A DNA stretch of 64,000 nucleotides. It comes from Pyrenophora tritici-repentis (taxonomy: Eukaryota; Ascomycota; Dothideomycetes; Pleosporales; Pleosporaceae). Of the stretch, positions 4,100 to 31,396 are shown piece after piece. The notes beneath the pieces are model-generated. The model was not told the DNA's origin and ran no database searches. It saw only the letters and a list, made by a program, of their open reading frames with translations. Positions within the stretch are counted from its first letter, which is position 1. The number at the start of each line of letters is the position of its first letter. The DNA is taken from the NCBI RefSeq assembly GCF_003171515.1, contig NC_089399.1, forward strand, positions 3,100,001 through 3,164,000. The letters run 5' to 3'. The position numbers and the translations under genes are program-made.

Positions 4100-4745
4100 G
4101 TAGGAGAAGCTCAACGACTACTACAGTAAACTTAACGACTCACCCGCGTACTTTGCGGCCTGCGCTCTTCACCCGTACTATCGACGCTATTGCGAGAAGG
4201 CGTGGCGTAATAAGCCTAAGTGGCTCGTCGCCTGTATAGCTGACTTTCGTGCTCTTTAGGCAGAGTATACGACCTCTACTCCTCTAACAAAGCCCTTAAA
4301 AGAGCGTAATAACAGCACTATTAACGAGGCTATCTCGTATATTATAAGCGATAGCGAGGACGATAATAAGCTCACAGATAAGTACGACAGGTGGCGCAAA
4401 TTAGAGCTAAAGTGGACGAGTAAGTAGCACAACAGCCCTAACGTTGATAGTAACCCTATTAAGTACTAGGTACAGCTTTAGTCTAAGTATCCTAACCTTT
4501 CACGCTTTGCGATTAACGTGTTAAATATTCTAGCGAGCAGTTGCGAGTGCGAGCGCATGTTTAGTGAACTAGGAGATCTACTTACTCCGCGACGGCGCAA
4601 GATTAGGTTACAACTACTCGCCGCGCTTTAATATGTATAGGCTTAGAATGCCGCTAGCATAAAGCTGCCGACGTTAGCTACAAGCTAACTCTTAGATCAC
4701 GACCTTAAGCAGTTGTACAACCTCACAGCGTGGGAGCAACCTAGC
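4100..4745 (+). pseudogene. RIP-decayed hAT transposase relic, downstream half
   Basis: This is the continuation of the relic at 1-652. The translation reads 'EKLNDYYSKLNDSPAYFAA', then an hATC block 'NPIKYWVQL*SKYPNLSRFAI' and 'SSCECERMFSELGDLL', ending near 'LTAWEQPS'. Stops interrupt it at Trp or Gln positions. It begins with the right copy of the hAT-1 target duplication (4100-4107). About 230 bp of unrecognised AT-rich sequence follow, up to the hAT-3 insertion at 4988. Confidence 0.85.
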
Positions 4746-12789: not shown

Positions 12790-13647
12790 TATCTAGCAGA
12801 AACAAATTCAGACTGAATCTCGTGCTGCGCAGATGTTTAATGTCTCTCGCCATACACTCCACCGCCGACGCGCTGGCAAGCCTGCACGACGCGATTGCCA
12901 GCCTAACTCAAGAAGGCTTACCTAGAGAGAAGAGGAGGTGATTTTTGACTATATACTTCAGCTGGATAAGAACGGATATGGGCCTACCTACGCTGATGTA
13001 CGAGATATAGCTAATAAGCTGATAGCTGCGCGCGGCGCTAGCCCTGTCGGCATCCACTAGCTACGCAACTTTGTTAAGCGTACAGACAGTCTTCAGACGT
13101 GTTTCAACCAAGCGTACGATAGGCAGAGAGCTCTATGTGAGGATGCGACATTAATAAGAGGTGGTTTAAGCTTGTAGAAGAGACAAAGGCTGAGCTTAGT
13201 ATCTGCGATGAGGACGTCTACAACTTTGATGAAGCTGGCTTTATAATGGGCAAGATTACAACGCAGCTAGTTATAACAGGAGCAGAGAGGAAAGGCAGGC
13301 CGAAGAGTATTCAGCCAGGCAATCGCGAGTGGGTAACGCTGATCGCTGCTATCAGCGCTGCTGAGCTGATGCGCGATCGGATCTCCAGTCTTGAGAAGGC
13401 TAACAGCGCAGCCTCAGCGCGTAGGCAGCGCTCTAAAAGGCATATACAGAAGCATGGAGTACTTATAAAGGGAGCTGGAGAGGATATACTGGCTCAAAAT
13501 GAGGCTGACCAGCAGATTGCTCATGAAGAGCGTCAAGGAGGAGCGCGATTAGGCCTCAGCCAGCGCGCTCAAAGGCGCTGCACTAGGTGCAAGGAGACTG
13601 GGCACAACTCGCGCACATGCAACGCTAATACTGTTGATATAAAGTAA
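12790..13647 (+). pseudogene. pogo/Fot1-like transposase remnant
   Basis: The translation shows a CENP-B-type helix-turn-helix region (RAAQMFNVSRHTLHRRRAGKPAR), then 'REEEVIFDYILQLDKNGYGPT' and 'ANKLIAARG', and a core start 'DVYNFDEAGFIMGK', in which the first catalytic Asp is visible, followed by 'RPKSIQPGNREWVTLIAAI'. It then jumps straight to a C-terminal basic region and a zinc knuckle (C-x2-C-x4-H-x4-C, about 13580-13622). Roughly 200 residues holding the other catalytic acids are missing at about 13350, next to a GCTGCT microhomology. There are also stops and a frameshift near 13150. It cannot encode an active transposase. Confidence 0.8.
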
Positions 13648-19843: not shown

Positions 19844-20565
19844 ACACCAGTAGAAGTTTGAGGGGGGTGAGTTGCTCTTAGATTGAAGATACTTTGGGGA
19901 AGCCCTGGTGGTTCACGGTACTTTCGGCTCAACGTGGCGTTCTCGGTAATGACTTTACCTGTCTTTGAAGAGTAGCAAAATTGCATTTTGTAATTATTGG
20001 CATAGAATTTCCATCACGTCGCTTGTTTATGTCGATCTCTAGCAGCAGTAACGGTGCGCATGTGCGGAAGATTCATTTGGTGATGCATGGTCACGTGATC
20101 GATGACATCATGAACGGGTGATTAGCAGTCACAACGGCCTGTCTTCCTGCATCACTTCATCGCGGATGACACCACTTGGAAGACTTTTCACTAAACTCAT
20201 AGTTATACTGTAAAGTTTTTTATGTTTTCTCTGGTGATTTTTTGACACTCATGTCGTCGAGTTGTGATCATCTCAATCGCTCCGCCGTACAGCACTTCAC
20301 CTTGACATCGCACCATCGTGTTTTCTCCCGCATACCGTGCATACGAGCTGTCGCTTATCGCAGAAGTAGGAAAATAATGTGGACCCATCCAACTTGGTAT
20401 AGCTGCGCTCTGAGCATGGTTGTTATTGGCGGTCCCGCGACCCAACTGTGCCGCAATTCTTAGTGGGAGTGAGGGTTATTGTCTCATATTCTTCGATCAC
20501 GCCGATCCCAAACCACAACACACTACATCTGTTCTATTCGCGTTCGCAAGCCACTGTATCCAGAC
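19844..20565. other. intergenic, calpain 3' side and HET gene upstream region
   Basis: No gene recognised. Contains a TCACGTGATC palindrome near 20091. An upstream in-frame ATG for the HET gene exists at 20479. Confidence 0.5.
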
Positions 20566-21450
20566 ATGGGCTTCTGTGAGCCTTGTTCCAGTTACAATAT
20601 TTCGCTGGAGAGCTTTACCTCGGGTGCTAATCGTTGCTTCGAGGGGCTGTATCCAATAATTGCGTACGGCCCAGAAGAAGACCAACAGCTTCGAAAGGAA
20701 TACGATCTCTGTGGAATGATTCTCGAGATGATTGAGAATACAAATTTGGTTGAATACATTTCTGAAACAACCTGGATGAAGGGCATTACGGCGACCTTCT
20801 TCTTACAGAAGGCTAAAGAAAAAACTCATACCCTACCAATGAAAGTACCCTGTATTTATATCAAGATACGATCTCCTCTTGGATATACTTGTGCAGCAAT
20901 CAGATCGGCCTCGGAAGACCCCTTGAAGTATCCTGGTTTCAGTCGTCTTCTTCCACAGAAGCCGGCATCCCTTGATATACCATTAATACGTCACTGGTTG
21001 CAGAAATGTGACCTCGAACACACTCAGTGCTCTGAGATCTCGAACTTGGGAAGTTCCACGAGCCAGTTGATAGTCATTGATGTCTGTCGGAAATGTATTG
21101 TGTCGGCACCGAACGATTGCCGCTACGTAGCGTTAAGCTATGTATGGGGAAACACAATGCAATTACAGCTCAGTACGAATAATATCCACAAGATATCACA
21201 GGATATGGGACTATCTGGTGCATCGATTCCACAAACCATCCGCGACGCAATGGCGTTAGTGGAAAGCTTAGGCGACCGATATCTATGGGTTGATGCCCTC
21301 TGTATCATTTCGGATGACGCAAAGACCAAACAAGAAGCTATCGCCAATATGGACAATATATATGCCGGCTCATTGCTCACAATAGTGGCCAGTGCCTGCG
21401 CCAGTGCTGATGAACCACTTCGTGGCGTAAGCACAAAAAGCCCCTGGTAG
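20566..21450 (+). pseudogene. HET-domain protein, 3'-truncated
   Basis: The frame (start preferred at 20566, MGFCEPCSS; an upstream ATG at 20479 is possible) carries a Cys-rich N-terminus, an 'LIRHWLQKCDLEHTQC' segment and a HET domain with its signature blocks YVALSYVWG, PQTIRDAMALVESLG and YLWVDALCI, then NMDNIYAGSLLTIVAS. Such proteins normally run on for several hundred residues; here the frame ends at 21450, right where an Argonaute-like gene on the opposite strand also ends. HET domains trigger cell death in heterokaryon incompatibility. The open frame up to the junction suggests recent truncation. Whether a shortened product is made is unknown. Confidence 0.8.
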
Positions 21451-22466
21451 CTTCTACATTTTCGTTCGTCAGTCTGTTCAGAAGTGATGCAGTCATGAGA
21501 CCAACAGATGGAATCTTTTGAAGCTCTGTGCTGCAGCCAACGGTTTCTAGAAGGTGCAGTGGGATCCAAATGTCTTTACAGATATTGGCAAGAGGCATAT
21601 TTAGAAGGTTCGAAGGCAGCGTTTGATCGTAGTATTCCTTGAGGTATTTGGCTACGGAATACCTCACATTACCCTTCCAGAAGTCAGGAACCTCGCTAGA
21701 TCGCTTCAGGTCAATAACGATAGAAGCAGAAAAACAGTTCGGATTTTGCTGTGTAGTGTTCCCGAAGCCAAGTCCAAATAGTCGTGCGGCTGCATTGTTC
21801 GTAGCCCTTGTGATATCCGACAAAACTCTAGTCTTGGCAGGTGGTGAAGTCGATATGGATCCATTTTCGTGTGACATCCCATTCGCCGCTACCTTTGGGT
21901 CTTGGGTAGAATTAGTCTGTCGACCGTAAGTACGGGTGACGCTGAGACCGACTAGCATAGCCTTTGTTTTGTCTAAGACATTGGGGTTACTGGAATCAAC
22001 TATAGTAAAACCAAACGTGCTTAGAACCAAAGCAGAGAGGTTGGTGCCTCCCCTCATGCCAGCCACAAGATCGGTTTCCGCGCGCATCTTTCGGTCGTTG
22101 GGGTCGAGCTTAAGCGTGGTGCGGAACAAGTAATTCAGTATTGGAGCTTCTCTAAGCGTAGCCTTGCCATCTGGATGAGTGGCAACTTCTTTAATGGCAC
22201 TCTTGCTGTCAATGGACTTGCTGCTAGCGTCGCTGAGCAAAGACCCCGTCCTCGTGCAGAACTGTGCAGTTTTATCGGTAAGACCGAAGGAAGCTGTCTG
22301 CGTGCTTTTGCGCAGAATGACCTGGAGTTTCTGCCAATACTCAGTGGTATCGGCGTTGGTGGCAGTCAACTCTTTCAGTGCAGCGGCATTGAGGCTGCAA
22401 TAGATGGGCTTGTCACTCTTTTCCCCATTGGCTTTCCTAATTGTCGTGACTGTGACGTTCAACTCG
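21440..22466 (-). pseudogene. Argonaute-like gene, L1 and PAZ-like part (3'-truncated)
   Basis: Read from 22466 down, the frame is open: ELNVTVTTIRKANGEK, IYCSLNAAALKEL, an L1/DUF1785-like stretch (PILNYLFRTTL, AMLVGLSVTRTYG) and a PAZ-end-like block (SVAKYLKEYYDQTL, NMPLANICKDIWIPLHLLETV). This order matches eukaryotic Argonaute between the N and MID domains. The frame meets the truncated HET gene at about 21440, so MID and PIWI (the slicer domain) are absent. Its N-terminal part lies 7.5 kb away at 30387-29957, separated by the TA-flanked element; the joint 'VSKDT-Y-ELNV' is in frame. Family identity rests on eye alignment only. It cannot be a working slicer. Confidence 0.65.
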
Positions 22467-22468
22467 TA

Positions 22469-22503
22469 CAGTACTTTGCAAAACCGCCCTCACCCTTTGC
22501 GCA
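22469..22503. repeat. left 35-bp terminal inverted repeat of the NLR-carrying element
   Basis: Begins CAGTACTTTGCAAAACCG and ends CCTTTGCGCA. One mismatch against the reverse complement of 29922-29956. TA immediately outside at 22467-22468. Confidence 0.9.
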
Positions 22504-22800
22504 AGCGACGATTCCGTAAGACCCCTGCTAGCCTAGGATACCCTTGCTAACTTAAGCCAGTCGCAGAGTACCGAGCTCTACTAGCTTAAGTGAGCTAGCT
22601 CAGAATCTCGAGGCACTCTTGTTTGTAAAACAGGTTGAAGGTGATGATATAGGCTTACTACACAAAACAAAGTTACACTGTGATACAAGTCACTAATTGT
22701 ACTTAAGCTGCTCATGGCTGTGATGGCCTGTGATGGCAGCCTGTCAATGCAGCAGTTCACGCTAGGCTGTGCTGATCAGCTCAGTTCCAGCGCTTCTCGC

Positions 22801-23237
22801 CGTGCGACCACGCTTGCACTGCACCCTGCAGGCGACGCAGTGTGCCTTCTAGTGAAGAGAAAACAGCCACACCTCACCAACCCTCTGCTCTATTTGCGTC
22901 GGATGTTAAATAATGGAATTGCCCTGCTGTCCTAGTGCATCCTGTACCGGTATGCAATGCTCTTAGTCTGCTGGAGTTCACGATACGTTAGTAGGCACAT
23001 CATCAACAACCTTTAGCCACCACAAGACACGCTTGTTCCTAGGAATAGACAGTTGCGTACTTTAAACTTAACATTAGGGATAAATAGGAAATGCACAATA
23101 TCATTGCAGGGGACTTCTTCTTGCCTTCAACATGCCACACGAATAGAGCAGAATGTGCCGGTGAGGTGTGGCTGTTGTTTCTCAACTGGAAGTCACACTG
23201 CGTCGCCTGCAGGGTGCAGTGTAAGCGTGGTCGCACG
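22801..23237. repeat. large inverted repeat (99-bp arms) in the left end of hAT-2
   Basis: 22801-22899 (CGTGCGACCACGCTTGCACT...) pairs with 23139-23237 at roughly 85-90 percent, with a ~240-bp loop. Transcribed, it would give a long hairpin RNA. It may be a solo nested inverted-repeat insertion or part of the hAT end; no target duplication is evident. Confidence 0.85.
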
Positions 23238-23719
23238 GAGACAAGGTTGTCAGTAATCAATATCTCATCAATATTGTTGTTTGATTTGTTTGATTCGGAG
23301 CCAACCAACTAACCAACAGTTAGCCACTGTATTTCTGTCAATCAATCAACCAATCTTGAGAACAAAATGTTGATAGGATTGGTGTTGTTTGATAGTAAGC
23401 GAGGGAGGGGGATACCTAGGTGAGGCCTCTGGGATAGCTGCTCAACGACGAATTCTTAGTGTTGGATCTTGCTTACTAAGCCTACTCGCGTGTAAGTTAT
23501 ATGACCTAGGTTCCATCCCATCTCTCACTCACTCCAGGCTAGTACGTACGAGGCTTAGCGCCCACAACGCTAGCTGGCAGAGACATAGATCTCAATTCCT
23601 GTAGCACAATACACAACACGATTCACACATGTTCTATTCCTAGTGCTACTGACATCAGGCTTATAACATTTAACAACACCTTACTTTCTCGCGGCTCCGG
23701 CTTACTTTTAGCCTTATCC

Positions 23720-26398
23720 ATGCCCTCTATACCAGCAAAACGCAAGCCCGAGGCTGCCGAAGAAGCTGATACTCCCTTCAAGCGAGCACAACGTACGCGC
23801 AAACCTACGCTCAAAGCGCTGTTGGGTGACGGCAGCCAGCCAACCCAGCCGATAGAGCTGCCAGAAAGTACGCCGGATCCGCCTACAGAGCCGCCTACAC
23901 AAGTTATCGAGCCGCCCACACGGGCTATTGAACCGCCATGTAAGCCTGTACAACAACCCGAGGAGCGCCCTCGGCGGGCATCACCACTGCCTATTTTGGC
24001 TGCCTCACAAGCCTCTCGGCTCACTGATGAGCCAGCCTGGGAGTCGCAGTTAATGTTTGATAAGCCAGAGGACTCTATTGTACAGCCTTTAGCTTTCTCT
24101 AGCGCTGCCACTGAGGCTTTGGTGGAGGAGGATAGCGCTGTGAGCGTCGATTTTCGCGACTTTGAGGGCGTCGATTGGTCGCGATTAAAGGGGTTTGTCG
24201 CGCCGCTGAGCACTCCACGAGGCAAGGCAAGCTGGATTTTTCAACACGGCTGGCGTGTCTGGAAGGAGGGTACTCACCACCCAGATGAGTTGTACTTTGT
24301 GTGCAAGTACTGTCATATTCATAAGCTACCTAATGGTGTACACCGAGTAACGAAGTCAACCACTGCCGCCAACGGGCACCTCCAGCTTGATAAACCTGGT
24401 CATCGGCTCAGCAAAGATGGTCCAATCCTAAGCAAACCTCTCCGCAAACATGGACAACAATCACTTCGTCAGGCAGCTCTAAGCGGTGTCAAATTTAGTC
24501 TAGAGGCGTACAAGACTATAGGAAACTTCGACGTACAAGAATTTCGGCAGGCAGCTGCGCTCTGGCTGGTCGACAACAACAGACCACTCCGCGAGTTTGA
24601 GACGCCGGCTTTTCGCAAGATGATCAGGCTTGCTAATCCTGAGGCAGAGGCGGCGTTATGGAGGTCTCATAACAGCGTGTCAGCGTTCGTGATGAGGTTG
24701 TACAGTTGGCTACGGCCTCAGGTGGTGCGCGCGTTGGCTGAAGCCGAGAGCAAGGTACATATAAGCTTCGATGGGTGGACGACAAAAGGCGGCAAACGTG
24801 GCTTCTTTTCTGTAGTTGCTCACTACGCCAACAGTAAGGGCGCGATAGTTGACCTACCCATCGCGCTGCCGCAGCTGGTGGGTGCCCACACTGGTGAGGC
24901 GATAGCTGACGCTGTAACCAAAATCCTGCAATCCTTCAGCATTAATCGCAGCAAACTCGGCTACTTTGTGCTCGATAACGCTTACAATAACGACACCGCT
25001 GTTAACAAACTCGCCGCGATGTACCACTTTTCTGCCTCCGATCGCCGCCTCCGCTGCGCTTGCCACATACTTAACCTTGTTGGCCAAACGATTATGTTCG
25101 GGAGGGATGCTGACGCGTATAACAACGCCCTGGAGAACACAAAGATGGAGGATTTTTACATGAAGGAGTGGCGGAAAGAAGGACCGCTTGGCGTGTATCT
25201 TGATATTATCAACTACATCAACACGCCGAAGCAGTGGAGTATTTTTGAAGATTGCCAACGCGAGGCAGTTAACAGCATGCCCACAGGCGCCAGCGGCGGC
25301 ACTCGCGAGCCAATTAAGCCGTGTGTTACACGTTGGAACAGCTATTACGACTGCTTTAAGCGCGGAGTTCAGCTCCAACAAGCTATCAACGCATACGCCA
25401 CGTACCACATTCGCGAGACTGAACAGGCTGACGAACAGGCAGCTATTAGAGGAAACAAGCTGCCTGATGTGCCGCGGTGGATGAGGTCAGACGGCCTTAC
25501 GGCGGCTGACTGGGCGGTGATTACTGAGTACATGGCGATACTGCAGCCGCTCAAGTTTGCTACAGATCGCCTCCAAGGCCGCGGCAAGTGTGGCCGTTTT
25601 GGCGCACTCTACGAGGTCATCCCAGTATTTGAGAGTGTGATAACTGAGCTGGATGCACGCCTTCGGCCATACGAATCGGTCAACCACGAGCCATCTGAGG
25701 CGCCCGAAGATCACATCCCGATCAACCTGCGAGCCGCGAGGCGAAAAGCGAGCAATTACTTTACTAAGATCCTCCAAAGTCCCATTTACTACGCAGCTAC
25801 GGCACTACATCCACGATATAAAACATACTCTAAGCGCTTCTGGCGCGACAAACCTACACAATTGAGCACCGCGCACGCGAAGTTTCTGCGGGTTTGGGCT
25901 GCCTACAAGCCTGCCGCTGCTGCCACAACACCAACCCCTGCGCCAAAACCTACCATGAGCAGCTTTGACGACGCTATCGACGCTATACTAGATGAGGACG
26001 GCGAGCATACATTGGAGGTGGAGGATGAGTACGATAGCTGGTTAAAAGAGCCTATGTGGACGTCTGATCAACACAAGGAGGGTCCAACAGCTGTACAGTA
26101 CTGGTTATCGTTGAAGCCGAAGTATCCACATCTTTCACGATTGGCGATCGACGTGTTGACTATACCCGCCTCCAGCTCTGATTGTGAGCGCGTTTTTGCG
26201 GGAACTGGCGATATAATTGAGCCACAAAGGCGGAAAATTGGCGCGCAGTTACTGGCTGCTTTGGTGTGCTTGCAACGGTGGACTCGTGCAGGTTTTACAA
26301 CACCAAGCACGACAACAGCAGCAAAGCATACTGATGAGGAGCTCACGGAAGAGTTTGCGATAGGAACGTGGGAAGAGCCGCCTGCAGAATTGTCATAG
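23720..26398 (+). CDS. hAT transposase (hAT-2), full length
   Basis: A single open frame of 892 aa from MPSIPAKRK to a stop at 26396-26398. It has a Pro-rich leader, a BED-type zinc finger (VCKYCHIHK then paired His), the catalytic core SFDGWTTKGGKRG, YFVLDNAYNNDTA, the C-x2-H motif RCACHILNL, VTRWNSYYDC, and a complete hATC domain (VQYWLSLKPKYP, SSDCERVFAGTGD). All hallmark residues of the hAT RNase-H-like fold appear present, with no internal stop, so it may be active and could act on related elements such as hAT-1, whose transposase is closely similar. The start at 23720 is the first ATG after long AT-rich 5' sequence. Confidence 0.93.
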   Translation: MPSIPAKRKPEAAEEADTPFKRAQRTRKPTLKALLGDGSQPTQPIELPESTPDPPTEPPTQVIEPPTRAIEPPCKPVQQPEERPRRASPLPILAASQASRLTDEPAWESQLMFDKPEDSIVQPLAFSSAATEALVEEDSAVSVDFRDFEGVDWSRLKGFVAPLSTPRGKASWIFQHGWRVWKEGTHHPDELYFVCKYCHIHKLPNGVHRVTKSTTAANGHLQLDKPGHRLSKDGPILSKPLRKHGQQSLRQAALSGVKFSLEAYKTIGNFDVQEFRQAAALWLVDNNRPLREFETPAFRKMIRLANPEAEAALWRSHNSVSAFVMRLYSWLRPQVVRALAEAESKVHISFDGWTTKGGKRGFFSVVAHYANSKGAIVDLPIALPQLVGAHTGEAIADAVTKILQSFSINRSKLGYFVLDNAYNNDTAVNKLAAMYHFSASDRRLRCACHILNLVGQTIMFGRDADAYNNALENTKMEDFYMKEWRKEGPLGVYLDIINYINTPKQWSIFEDCQREAVNSMPTGASGGTREPIKPCVTRWNSYYDCFKRGVQLQQAINAYATYHIRETEQADEQAAIRGNKLPDVPRWMRSDGLTAADWAVITEYMAILQPLKFATDRLQGRGKCGRFGALYEVIPVFESVITELDARLRPYESVNHEPSEAPEDHIPINLRAARRKASNYFTKILQSPIYYAATALHPRYKTYSKRFWRDKPTQLSTAHAKFLRVWAAYKPAAAATTPTPAPKPTMSSFDDAIDAILDEDGEHTLEVEDEYDSWLKEPMWTSDQHKEGPTAVQYWLSLKPKYPHLSRLAIDVLTIPASSSDCERVFAGTGDIIEPQRRKIGAQLLAALVCLQRWTRAGFTTPSTTTAAKHTDEELTEEFAIGTWEEPPAELS

Positions 26399-26776
26399 AA
26401 ACGTCCCTTCAGAACCTTAAGTCTATCAATATTCAATCAATCAACCAACCAAAAATTGGCTCTTCAGTCTCATCAACTCAAACAAACAAACTGTAGCCCT
26501 AAGAAATGAGCCAGTCAATCAACATCTACGCCTCAAATGTTGGTTGTTTTGTTTGTTGACTTCTCTGCACGGAGAGAAGCGCTGAGAGCTGAGCTGATCA
26601 GCACAGCCTAGCGTGCACTGCCTCCACAGGCTGCTATTACAAGCTATTAGAAGACGTCACAGGCTATCACAGCCCTCAACTACTTATATTATCTCTTAAT
26701 CCGCCATGGCAAGTACTCTCTGACTTCAACTTGTTTGCGATATCTGCTTTTCCGTTGAAGCATCATTGTAGCAGCC
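26399..26776. other. hAT-2 right end and NLR 5' region
   Basis: Up to 26685 this is the subterminal and terminal repeat of hAT-2. The remaining ~90 bp precede the NLR start at 26777, so the hAT landed within about 100 bp of the NLR start codon and probably in its promoter or 5' leader. Confidence 0.7.
26568..26685. repeat. right terminal inverted repeat of hAT-2
   Basis: Its reverse complement aligns with 22705-22806, sharing the CAGCCTGT, CACGCTAGGCTGTGCTGATC and CAGCGCTTCTC blocks, with an extra ~23 bp near the tip. Confidence 0.8.
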
Positions 26777-29540
26777 ATGCGACTTCTTCACTTTGACCCG
26801 TCTGGCAGACTTGTTCTGACAGATTTTCGCAGTCAAATCATCCCACCATATGCTATCCTTTCACACAGATGGGGGCATCCCAATTCTGAGGTTCTCTTTG
26901 AAGACATTGAAAACGGGGCCTATCACAAGAAAGACGGCTATCGAAAGATCAAGTTCTGCGCTACACAGGCGGCCGAGGATCAGCTCCGGTACTTCTGGAT
27001 CGACACATGTTGCATTGACAAATGGAACGTCCGTGAGCTCTCAAGCTCGATACTCAATGTTTGTTTGGTACAAGAATGCAACAAGATGCTACGTATTCCT
27101 ATCAGACGTATCTGCACCCTCGACACTTCAACAAAGCGACTGGGAAGCTTCCTTCCGGGAAAGCGATTGGTTTCGTCGAGGCTGGACACTTCAGGAGCTC
27201 ATTGCGCCAATATCAGTCGAGTTCTACTCCTGCGAACGACGGCAAATCGGCGACAAAAGGTCTCTTGAGCAGCTCGTGCACGATGTAACTAGCATTCCAA
27301 TCACAGTATTGCGAAATTGTCCATTGGACCAATTTACTACATCTGAACGAATGCACTGGGCCAAAAAACGCAAAACTACTGAAGATGAAGATATTGTGTA
27401 CTGCCTTCTTGGAATATTTAATATCTCTATGCCTGTATCTTACGGCGAGGGAAAGGAGAAAGCATTAGGAAGACTACTAGCTGAAGTAGGCGAAGCCAAC
27501 AGCGCACCCTCTATCATTCCGTTTTCCCAGAACGATCGTTTTGTGGGTCAGGAGTCACAGCTTGCTAAACTAGAAGAAAAGCTCTTCAGCGACAAGCAAA
27601 CCACCACATTCGCGATTGTAGGACCTGGAGGAACAGGCAAATCACAGCTAGCGCTTGAGCTCGCACACAGGACACGGCAAAACAATCAGAATTGCTCAGT
27701 CTTCTGGATTGATGCAAGCAATCTAGACAGTCTCGATCAGTCATATGCAGGGATTGCCCAAAAGCTCAAAATTCCCAGCTGGGACGATGAGAAGGCAAAC
27801 CTTAAGCAGCTAGTAAGGCTTTGTCTAGAGGAAAGAGGTGCAAGACAGTGTCTGCTCATTTTTGACAACACAGAGGACATAAGCTTAGGATCTCCAGGGT
27901 TATCTGGACCACAAGCTGCAAGTTTGATTAGCTACTTACCTCAGTCTGAACTGTGTTCTATCGTCTTCACAACAACCAACAGAAACATAGCTAAGAAGCT
28001 CGCATCGCAGAATCTTGTAGAGCTGCAGAATCTGACACCTACTACGGCTCAGAGGATGTTCGAAAAGTACTTGGACGCCGTGCTTTCTGAAAGTGAGGAG
28101 CAGGAGGCAAAGCTGTTGCTACAAGAGCTATCCTATCTTCCACTAGCCATTGTCCAAGCAGCAGCGTGTATCAACAACACAGAATTAAAAGTCCCCCAGT
28201 ACCGATCACAAATGGGCCTGCAGAAGTATGATGCTTTCGAAAACAGCGACGAAGTGACTGACGTCAAGCTAAGGGGCTACAATATAAAGAGTCCTATAGC
28301 TACTACGTTGTTCATCTCGATGGACATGATCCGCATTGAGAATCCGATTGTAGTGAACTGTCTATACATCGCCGCCTGCGTAGACTCGAAAGATATTCCG
28401 CTTGATCTTGTACGAGCGTACTCACTTGGGATGGATGCTGCGGTACAGGTACTTAGCAATTACAAGGCCGTTACCAGGAGACCAGCTGAGACTGCATTCG
28501 ATGTTCACAGACTTGTGCATCTCGCTCTGCGGGAGTGCCTTGAAAGTCAAGAAAAACTAGCCCAGTGGACTCAGGATACTATTGCAAAGCTACTCCAGGT
28601 GTTCCCAGATCATGGTCATGGCAATAGAAGCAAGTGGGGACGACTACTTCAACATGCCAAGTGCGCTCTGTCATATGGTTGTGCTGAAGACGAGAATATT
28701 GACTGGCTACATCTAGCGAGGAAATCTGCCATGGCGTTGTACAGTGACGGACGGTATAATGAAGCGGAAGAGCTATTTGTGCAGGTGATGGAGACTTTCA
28801 AGACGAAGCTCGGAGCAGACCATCCAGACACGATAGGCAGTATGAACAATTTAGCGTCGACATACAGCAATCAAGGCCGCTGGGAAGAGGCTGAGAAGCT
28901 AAATGTCCAAGTGATGGAGACTTGCAAGATGAAGCTCGGAGCAGACCATCCAGACACGCTAGGCAGTATGAACAATTTAGCGTCGACATACAGCAATCAA
29001 GGCCGCTGGGAGGAGGCTGAAAAGCTACAGGTGCAGGTGACGGAGACCTGTAAGACGAAGCTCGGGGCAGACCATCCAGACACGCTGGCTAGCATAGCCA
29101 ACCTTGCGTCGACATACAGATTTCAAGGCCGCTGGGAGGAGGCTGAGAAGCTATTTGTGCAGGTCATGAAGACTCGCAAGACGAAGCTCGGAGCAGACCA
29201 TCCAGACACGCTGACTAGCATGAACAACTTAGCGTCGACATACAACAATCAAGGCCGCTGGGAGGAGGCTGAGAAGCTCTTTGTACAGGTGACGGAGACT
29301 CTCAAGACGAAGCTGGGATCGGACCATCCAGACACGCTGCGCAGCGTAAACAATCTCGCTTTTACGCGGAAATCACTTGGAAAAAACAAAGAGGCTCTTG
29401 GATTGTTGAGAGAATGCGTACAGCTTTCCCAGCATGGGTTTAGAGCTGATCATCCTGATTTGGTATCTTACACAGAATCGTTAGCTCAGTGGGAGGCAGA
29501 GCCTCAGGCAGTTGTCAAAGGCAAATGTATAGTAATGTAA
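26777..29540 (+). pseudogene. HET/NB-ARC/TPR NLR-like gene with one frameshift in HET
   Basis: From 26777 (MRLLHFDPSG) the frame gives the first half of a HET domain (IPPYAILSHRWG, FWIDTCCIDK). At about 27050-27056 the homology moves to another frame (MFVWYKNATRCYVFLSDVS), with no GT-AG pair to explain it, so a small indel is likely. The rest is one open frame to 29540: the HET end (GWTLQELIAP, DIVYCLLGIF), an NB-ARC nucleotide-binding domain (Walker A GPGGTGKSQLAL, Walker B CLLIFDN, LSYLPLAI) and five TPR (kinesin-light-chain type) repeats of 42 residues. Fungal NLRs of this build sense non-self and use HET to kill the cell. Alternatives are a sequencing error, or translation from 27058 of an NB-ARC/TPR protein without complete HET. 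It is the only non-transposase gene in the TA-flanked element. Confidence 0.8.
28736..29365 (+). repeat. tandem 126-bp TPR-coding repeats
   Basis: Five units of exactly 126 bp (42 aa: AEKL-VQV-ET-KTKLGADHPDTL...NNLASTY-NQGRWEE). The GCGTCGACATACA word recurs at 126-bp steps (28856, 28982, 29108, 29234). The units differ at only a few codons, concentrated at a few TPR positions. Confidence 0.92.
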
Positions 29541-29921
29541 GTGTTCGTGTGGGTGCGCATATGATACGTACCTTCCATCTCACCGCCGCAATCAAGGCAG
29601 AAAAAAACTATCACATCAGCTCTAGTCTCACGAAGCGAGTAATCTGTCATGGAACTGCTGCTATAATGACAGGAATATATGCTGAAAACTTGTGAAGGAA
29701 ATGCGATTGCGCTTATCCTCTGCACTTGATGGTATTTATTCTTTGTGATTGTACGTTTTATCAATGCTGTATTACTGTACTGTGTGAGTAAGCGTTGTGC
29801 AAGCCACTAGCTTAGAAACACAGGCTAGCTATTCCAGGATCTTGGCTACCGGCAGAATGGTTATTCGTCAAGCTCGGATAGGGCTATCCTAGTACAACAG
29901 GGATTCTGTCAAAGCTGAGAG
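29541..29921. other. NLR 3' flank inside the TA-flanked element
   Basis: No gene. Ends at the right 35-bp inverted repeat. Confidence 0.6.
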
Positions 29922-29956
29922 TGCGCAAAGGGTGAGGCCGGTTTTGCAAAGTACTG
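29922..29956. repeat. right 35-bp terminal inverted repeat of the NLR-carrying element
   Basis: Starts TGCGCAAAGG and ends GCAAAGTACTG, with TA outside at 29957-29958. One mismatch (G/C) against the left copy. Confidence 0.9.
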
Positions 29957-30387
29957 TAGGTGTCTTTAGAGACCTTAAGGAGATCAGTCTTGTCCGATCC
30001 AAACAAAATCAGCTGGTCATCCGGAAATGTTTCCTCATCGCTATCTCCTTCTGCTTTGATGGTCTTCTGGGCTAGATGTAGAGCGATGTTCTTATTAGAC
30101 GCAAGCCTATTTAAATACTCGGTGATTGCGTCGCGTCGTAACTTCCGGCTAGTAACAGGGACGAGTTTACCAGTTGTTTCATCTTTCGTACAGACTTGAA
30201 TGGGTACAACACAAAGCACTGCAGAATCCCCCAGACGGTAGTCTACATGACATATAGCAGTCTTGCTTGGTGGTTGAACTTCCCATGATACAGGTCTATT
30301 ATCAAGTCGTTTACCGATAAACTCTGGGACGTTGTTTTCATCGCCGGGCGGCTTGGTTTGCTGCTTAGGCTTGCCTCGTCGAGACAT
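29957..30387 (-). pseudogene. Argonaute-like gene, N-terminal part
   Basis: From the ATG at 30387 (MSRRGKPKQQTK) an open frame reads through NRPVSWEVQPPSK, 'VPVTSRKLRRDAITEYLNRLA' and 'DDQLILFGSDKTDLLKVSKDT', comparable to the Argonaute N domain, ending in the TA target site. The visible frame runs a few codons into the inserted element before stopping. The natural continuation is at 22466 on the same strand. Absence of stops in either part (about 480 codons joined) suggests that the insertion is recent. A basic, Gln/Lys-rich leader is usual for fungal Argonautes. The family call is moderate; the joint is strong. Confidence 0.65.
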
Positions 30388-31396
30388 TCCGTTTCTCGGA
30401 TCGAATAGAATGAATGAAGCAAGTTTCTGTAATGAACCTTACATGTCGTCTCAGGCCCCTATTTATCATTTTTCTGCGCCAAGGTTCTGGTTTGTCAGTG
30501 TCATGCCTTGAGTGTCTGCTGATCTCCATACAGGACCTCATTGCTTTGCTAGCCCAACACCACGAGCTGATTGCTACAAGTCATATTACTTCCAGAACCA
30601 GCGTACAGTACGAAATTTCTCAGATCTAGAAGGATCGCTAAGTTTGTGATCGTCGCTTGACGGCATCAGACACATCGTGAATCACACTACCTTAGGAATG
30701 ATCAAGACAGCAAGCGAGATGTTGCAGGGAGGAAATCTCGAGATTTGTCGGTACCTACAATACGCGGCTTTATTGGCAGCACTAGTGGCACCGCATTCAT
30801 TCCCGTCCCGAAAGATCATTAATAAATGAACAGGTCGGCTGGTTGTCAGTGGCATCGTCCGAATCATCTCGTGATAAAAGCTATTTAGGGTCCCAAAGAT
30901 CTCGAGCTCATCGCGCTAGTTCTTGACATGGCTTTCTTTTGTTCCCTAAATGCAACCGTTGCGGTAGATCACTGTGAATGTAACCGTGGTGCAATTATAA
31001 ATTATAGAATGGATAGCTTGTCGATGCCTACTTAGGTAGGCGAAGACGCGTCTTGGTGGAACTGCGGATGACTAACCAGCCCATGACGTCACGCGCTCTC
31101 ACTAGTCCCTGCACATGTGCATGCACCATCCAACTTCACAACGCGCAGCAATGAGATTCAGCATGTTGACTTCCATACAAACCTATCACTATTATAAAAA
31201 AACCACTAGAATCTGTTTAAGTTTCTTACGATTGATATATACTGGTCTATCCGGTCTTCAAACCTGCAACGAGACGCATCCGTTCAGTACCACTTGGCCT
31301 ATAACTCTCGCTCATATCACTCTCACCATCTTCCAGATCTACGCTTGGATCCATCATTTACATGTCCATTTCAACCCAGTGCGCCAGCGCATCAAT
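30388..31396. other. intergenic, upstream of the Argonaute-like gene
   Basis: No gene recognised. Probably the promoter of the Argonaute-like gene (-) and the 3' side of the next gene (-). Confidence 0.5.

Follow-up and report, generated by a model that had tools for sequence, protein, structure and literature searches.

A TA-flanked inverted-repeat element with an NLR gene in Pyrenophora tritici-repentis and a probable transposon family with such cargo

Pyrenophora tritici-repentis is the tan-spot fungus of wheat. The window analysed here is a stretch of 64,000 nucleotides from this species (C10:3100001-3164000), and the assembly to which it belongs (40.9 Mb, 41 contigs) was the one genome searched throughout. 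Between positions 22467 and 29958 the window contains an inverted-repeat element which inserted at a TA dinucleotide within a host gene and which carries a NOD-like receptor (NLR) gene. The components of the locus are the following, in window coordinates.

21377-22466, minus strand: remainder of the host gene; P. tritici-repentis has a separate hypothetical protein, P0001, that matches it at 99%
22467-22468 (contig position C10:3122467), no strand: left TA target-site copy; keeping one TA restores the host frame
22469-22503, plus strand: left 35-bp terminal inverted repeat, beginning CAGT (inverted-repeat scan, end patterns and end profile)
22469-22690, plus strand: left subterminal region, similar over about 140-224 bp from the TA to the left-type ends C2a, C2b, C6 and C7 described below
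22704-26686, no strand: foldback sequence resembling a miniature inverted-repeat transposable element (MITE), about 0.65 kb without the hAT; drawn from inverted-repeat arms, outer borders by eye
23242-26567, plus strand: hAT transposon of 3,326 bp, with an open reading frame (ORF) at 23543-26398 matching Pfam Dimer_Tnp_hAT
26779-29540, plus strand: NLR cargo gene with HET, NB-ARC and TPR domains (Pfam); break of frame in HET near 27040
29784-29956, plus strand: right subterminal region of about 170 bp, 86-87% identical to the C7 element at its right end
29922-29956, minus strand: right 35-bp terminal inverted repeat (inverted-repeat scan, end patterns and end profile)
29957-29958, no strand: right TA target-site copy (sequence, and rejoining of the host frame with a single TA)
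29959-30438, minus strand: 5' part of the host gene (stop-to-stop frame), with P0002-P0004 as homologues

The two terminal repeats match at 34 of 35 positions, with one differing position (36 of 37 when the TA is counted). Mechanical finding of inverted repeats, which included the flanks, gave 42-nt arms at 93%, and together with the sequence it upheld what a preliminary description of the segment had reported, namely 35-bp inverted repeats with TA at both outer sides. Inside the repeats a weaker resemblance runs on in register (CCCTG...CTAGGATA), with a score that was reached by 8 of 1000 single-base shuffles. The left and right subterminal regions (about 170-220 bp) differ from each other, which makes the element asymmetric.

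When the flanks were joined by script with one TA, one of the three frames was open and read ...SKDTYELNVTVTT... (...DTYEL...), in agreement with the exact rejoining (DT-Y-EL) described earlier for removal of the segment and one TA. Two homologue searches with the host gene returned the same four proteins, P0001-P0004. In alignment, P0002, P0003 and P0004 (unnamed proteins of 405-431 aa from other sources) were contiguous across the insertion point; P0002 was 62% identical to the right-hand piece up to residue 143 and 53% identical to the left-hand piece from residue 143. These relatives therefore show the unoccupied host gene, and the segment does lie inside an interrupted gene. The description of this gene as Argonaute-like found no confirmation. 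Neither piece had an Argonaute match in Pfam at E≤10, nor did P0002 at 0.1, PDB searches with the host gene gave no Argonaute match at E≤10, and the AlphaFold model of P0002 was unusable (predicted local distance difference test score 29.8). By eye, the order of conserved stretches may resemble that of an Argonaute. At the 3' side of the host gene, a plus-strand HET-domain ORF (20473-21450) overlaps the 3' side of the minus-strand host gene near 21377-21450; both may have been cut off there by an old rearrangement.

The hAT transposon is flanked by a perfect 8-bp target-site duplication, CACGGAGA, at 23234-23241 and 26568-26575. Pfam confirmed the assignment to hAT, and the transposon is nested in the element. 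It sits within one arm of the foldback sequence, the arms of which lie at about 22704-22878 and at 23160-23241 plus 26576-26686. Subtracting the hAT leaves 4,154 bp; the size of about 3.5 kb given earlier for the element before the hAT landed is obtained if the foldback is also removed. Across the genome this hAT family occupies at least 40 places that are practically identical over 1.5 kb, the window copy counted (40 scored of 288 candidates), which points to recent amplification and makes the presence of a hAT in two copies of the element unremarkable. The hAT was also considered as the mobiliser of the whole unit and was rejected, as its ends and the 8-bp duplications (CACGGAGA here and CCTGTTAG in the C7 copy) lie within the element.

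Besides the later hAT, the NLR gene is the only gene recognised in the element. Pfam confirmed its domains (HET, E = 2.9e-6; NB-ARC, E = 1.2e-12; TPR_10, E = 6.8e-77), and the gene has the layout of fungal NLRs of the STAND class (signal transduction ATPases with numerous domains), that is, an effector domain, NB-ARC or NACHT, and a repeat domain, even though its HET domain is frame-broken. HET and the remaining part share one frame in the five distinct paralogue loci compared (a sixth subject, L053, is the same place as L025), so the window NLR is either broken or mis-assembled. Protein P0011, which stands for 12 sequences named P. tritici-repentis, is 94% identical over 78% of the window NLR query and, judged by eye, is without residues around the frame break and without some TPR units. 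An allele in other isolates thus seems to share the HET defect and to differ in its number of repeats. The window copy has probably lost its function.

The ends of the element recur elsewhere in the genome. A 28-base core of the end, searched with up to three mismatches, occurred at six places in the 40.9 Mb (reversed control, 0). This core starts 9 bases inside the TA, and TACAG stood outside it at all six places, which puts TA outside six of six ends found by a pattern that did not require it. A wider pattern gave eight places (control, 0), of which C10:2487526, with three mismatches, was not accepted. The seven accepted ends are the left and right ends of the window element, C7:21473 (left-type), C7:40960 (right-type), and the left-type ends at C2:1880166 and C2:1872076, which have the same direction (C2a and C2b), and at C6:1763698. 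TA lies outside every one of them. They begin with CAGT in five cases and CAGC in two, giving the family form CAGY...TTGCAAAACCGSCCTCAC. They scored 60-88 bits against an end profile built from these same seven, and an eighth match, which had not contributed to the model, was the resumed left end of C7 behind its nested hAT (22.7 bits). Compared with the window left end, the other left-type ends are alike over 141-224 bp at about 65-73%; for C7 the figure is 91% in the first 66 bp. The right-type ends of window and C7 are alike over about 170 bp at 86-87%, yet the NB-ARC regions of their NLRs are only 34% identical in protein. Left and right ends form two pairs in the genome, namely the window element and a 19.5-kb structure on C7. 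Terminal pieces compared with loci L023-L053 matched only at the window and C7 places, a search for more distant members with the C6 end matched only C6 itself and the window, and the end core had no match in IMG/VR viral contigs.

Four loci of this genome outside the window bear family ends, and at three of them (C7, C2a and C6; C2b is the exception) an NLR gene or remnant lies at most 1 kb inside the end. With 72 STAND/TPR loci (a list merged by hand from the genome search results), a crude estimate puts the chance of this at 3.6e-6 for three or more of four loci and at 5.6e-4 for two or more; both figures assume random placement and are therefore too small. At C2a, a DUF7708 - NACHT (NPHP3_N) - ankyrin gene, split by another hAT, lies inside the left-type end; the DUF7708 match starts 940 bp inside the end, and a preceding ORF without Pfam match starts at 513 bp. 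At C6, an NLR C-terminal remnant is located 320-405 bp inside the left-type end; when four sequences were compared, its DNA was similar to C7 at E = 1.65e-7. The C2a left end itself falls in an F-box-like ORF (L011:4672-5295), and a second host gene may be interrupted at this place.

The C7 structure is the larger of the two pairs, and its components are given below.

C7:21473-40960: paired element, left-type and right-type ends inverted, TA outside, 19,484 bp between the TAs
Within the first NLR (NLR1), 5,244 bp: Copia element with a 5-bp target-site duplication, ACAAT, by eye
Within C7:30972-33213: rest of NLR1
C7:36162-37286: frame of a PNP_UDP_1 gene (Pfam, E = 1.2e-8)
C7:37432-37917: ORF of 162 aa without a DDE match, its HTH_32 match lying below threshold
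C7:38060 (ATG), ORF C7:38064-40727: second NLR (NLR2), with apparent introns by eye

After subtraction of hAT and Copia the net length is about 10.5 kb. The left end extends for 66 bp from C7:21473, is interrupted by a hAT copy (duplication CCTGTTAG) and resumes at about C7:25204. The C-terminal codons of NLR1 read toward the left end and are split from the rest of the gene by the Copia element, while NLR2 reads toward the right end and stops 231 bp before it. Both NLRs, about 80% identical inverted copies, thus point outward, each toward its nearer end. An NxGxQxG motif is found at the start of NLR1 and NLR2 and at the C-terminal end of the PNP protein. In PMC9815663, the PP motif, with the core NxGxQxGxN, is described as linking NLRs to effectors that include PNP_UDP; the C7 motifs agree with this core at its first seven positions only. 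The region C7:30972-40727, with a PNP_UDP gene beside NLRs that have the same motif in their first exon, is a candidate amyloid-coupled NLR/effector module.

Elements of the Tc1/mariner/pogo type (IS630-type) have TA on both sides, a single TA at the empty site, CAGT or CAGC ends, short inverted repeats and precise insertion. The window family is like them in the TA, the CAGT/CAGC ends, the short inverted repeats and the precision of insertion. It differs in its large host-type NLR cargo (3.5 kb, and about 10.5 kb net in C7) and its asymmetric subterminal regions, and no transposase gene with the family ends was found. The earlier assignment to this class is retained in a weaker form: the TA duplication and CAGT-type ends agree with it and are its whole basis, and as no DDE/D transposase gene was found between the ends, the family is said to work like Tc1/mariner/pogo elements and is not counted as one of them. 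A full-length pogo-type element with the same ends, which the preliminary description suggested looking for, was not met with in this genome among the best 150 of 454 DDE_1 candidates. The two pogo elements examined (L054 and L055) have ends that differ from those of the family, and the ORFs scanned in the window element included no DDE/D transposase of this type.

The 162-aa ORF of C7, read by eye, is a candidate for an internally deleted remnant of a Tc1/mariner-like transposase. It may also be an ordinary nested insertion, though no convincing terminal repeats belong to it. In the genome, the three relatives nearest to this ORF are 80%, 54% and 48% identical. The 54% relative matches HTH_33 in one frame and DDE_3 in a neighbouring one, and it is located between another divergent NLR pair (C7:1.3433-1.3522 Mb). 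As a pointer to the source of a transposase this second pair is suggestive only; no family ends were found around it in the middle 6.2 kb examined or by pattern scan of 11.7 kb. In the region C7:1342000-1353700, two divergent NLR/TPR 3' ends, about 77% identical, flank the Tc1/mariner-like gene and an unnamed minus-strand ORF. Window positions 12854-13247 are 80% identical to C7:1342717-1343111, and adjoining the latter is a minus-strand ORF that by eye looks like the DNA-binding part of a pogo-type transposase.

Taken together, these features make it likely that the window element belongs to a small DNA transposon family with Tc1/mariner-type ends and TA target sites, the cargo of which is fungal NLR (STAND) genes. 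The presence of family ends beside other NLR genes of the same genome suggests that receptor genes were moved as transposon cargo. The central reading of the preliminary description, a TA-inserting inverted-repeat element with an NLR inside, survives the refuting condition set for it there, as further TA-flanked copies of the ends exist and three of the four other loci lie beside NLR genes or a remnant. The window element was probably moved in trans. The conserved ends would be bound by a Tc1/mariner-type transposase, either provided in trans or since lost from the element, which would cut the unit and paste it at TA. NLRs would thereby reach new loci, where changes in the number of TPR units and the swapping of effector and NB domains within constant ends would diversify them. 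By analogy with other filamentous fungi, the cargo NLRs would work as cell-death or allorecognition sensors; the window copy would give its output via the fused HET domain, and in the C7 copy the PNP effector and NLR would be coupled through the NxGxQxG motifs.

Several observations weigh against a recurrent family with NLR cargo. The NLR of the window itself is broken in the HET domain, its two pieces lying in different frames. Only two right-type ends were found, and the right end of C2a was absent from C2:1861500-1880166. C2b consists of a left end followed by a Copia element, with no identified cargo, and the C6 remnant is weak at the protein level (E = 0.086). The left-type end lies 5' of the NLR in the window and at C2a and 3' of it in C7 and C6. 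No family ends were detected at five HET-NB-ARC-TPR paralogue loci (C1, C5, C7:60.9 kb and two on C9), for which the stretch scanned was mostly the match plus 1.5 kb. At the C5 locus (C5:1532536-1537171), where no family end was seen, 89-nt inverted repeats of 80% (local 41-129 and 4588-4676) surround the HET-NB-ARC-TPR gene. A working transposase gene was not found inside any element with family ends, and no DDE_1 match among those best 150 of 454 candidates lay within 44 kb of the seven accepted ends, DDE_3 not having been searched as a family. Finally, the crude chance estimate given above treats placement as random, whereas transposons and NLRs may both cluster in repeat-rich regions.

Some of these points would also fit a single capture, in which a MITE-like non-autonomous TA element picked up an NLR in the window and the other ends lie near NLRs through shared repeat-rich regions. 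There are only two left/right pairs, C2b has no NLR inside in the stretch examined, C2a is without a right end, and C7:21-41 kb is crowded with hAT, Copia and long terminal repeat insertions. This is nevertheless improbable, as NLRs lie inside two separate pairs, in each of which one gene is directed at the right end, an NLR or remnant is present no more than 1 kb inside an end at three of the four other loci, and the right terminal 170 bp or so stay alike while the NLR halves differ. It is somewhat easier to imagine, though still doubtful, that C7 consists of two broken elements placed head to head, so that either NLR would have a 3' end of its own, which would leave the window as the sole complete copy. 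The outward orientation of the two ~80% identical inverted NLRs toward their nearer ends would agree with this, as would the lack of a DNA match to the window element in the stretch between them; the outer ends of C7, however, are one left-type and one right-type, inverted and with TA outside as in the window, and no family end was found between the NLRs. This arrangement of C7 is compatible with a transposon family that carries NLRs, and the likelihoods given to the two are not shares of one total. Conversely, C7 might be near the ancestral form, a self-mobile Tc1/mariner transposon of about 10 kb with its transposase between divergent outward NLRs and an amyloid-coupled PNP effector, the window copy being a shortened derivative moved in trans; we regard this as a speculative and rather unlikely extension. 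In its favour, the Tc1-type ORF, internally deleted by eye, is situated between the two C7 NLRs, and its 54% relative is likewise found between a divergent NLR pair, where the family ends are missing.

The cargo invites comparison with other gene-carrying elements. Plant Pack-type terminal inverted repeat elements are non-autonomous and carry captured host gene sequence, in random fragments. The window family is likewise non-autonomous, with terminal inverted repeats and host gene sequence, whereas its cargo is a recurrent NLR class. In the pairs linked by amyloid motifs, such as HET-S/NWD2 and PNP_UDP/NLR, the comparison is with C7, where a PNP_UDP protein ending in NxGxQxG lies beside NLRs that begin with the motif; the C7 genes differ in lying between transposon ends, and their function in such a pair is putative. 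Starships, giant transposons of Pezizomycotina, are described as large elements whose first gene encodes a DUF3435 tyrosine recombinase, and for Sanctuary a 6-bp direct repeat is given (PMC12506042). NLRs appear among Starship accessory genes in PMC9815663 and PMC12506042, and PMC9594970 reports a P. tritici-repentis Starship with HET and NACHT genes, so that both kinds of element carry NLRs (HET-NB-ARC-TPR in the window, NACHT-TPR in C7). That the segment is itself a Starship or a fragment of one is nonetheless very improbable: Starships are far larger and have DUF3435, while the window unit measures 3.5-4.2 kb and has TA and 35-bp inverted repeats, and Pfam gave no DUF3435 match for the three sense-strand ORFs scanned in this element, the rest of the window and the genome not having been searched.

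The preliminary description knew of no fungal family of this kind. NLRs as transposon cargo are already known through Starships (PMC9815663, PMC12506042 and PMC9594970). A small TA-inserting carrier with terminal inverted repeats and NLR cargo was not seen in the literature searched, in which the majority of subscription papers and of bioRxiv preprints was not covered. The routes by which fungal NLR genes spread, both inside a genome and from one genome to another, are not settled. If the family is real, it would provide a direct and testable route, apart from Starships, by which immune and allorecognition genes are copied inside genomes and perhaps also from one species to another; in one case NLRs would move together with a candidate effector. 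If C7 were near the ancestral form, it would represent a transposon equipped with an entire cell-death module, which might serve as a selfish device or benefit the host. Since the 35-bp ends are defined, any fungal genome can be searched with them.

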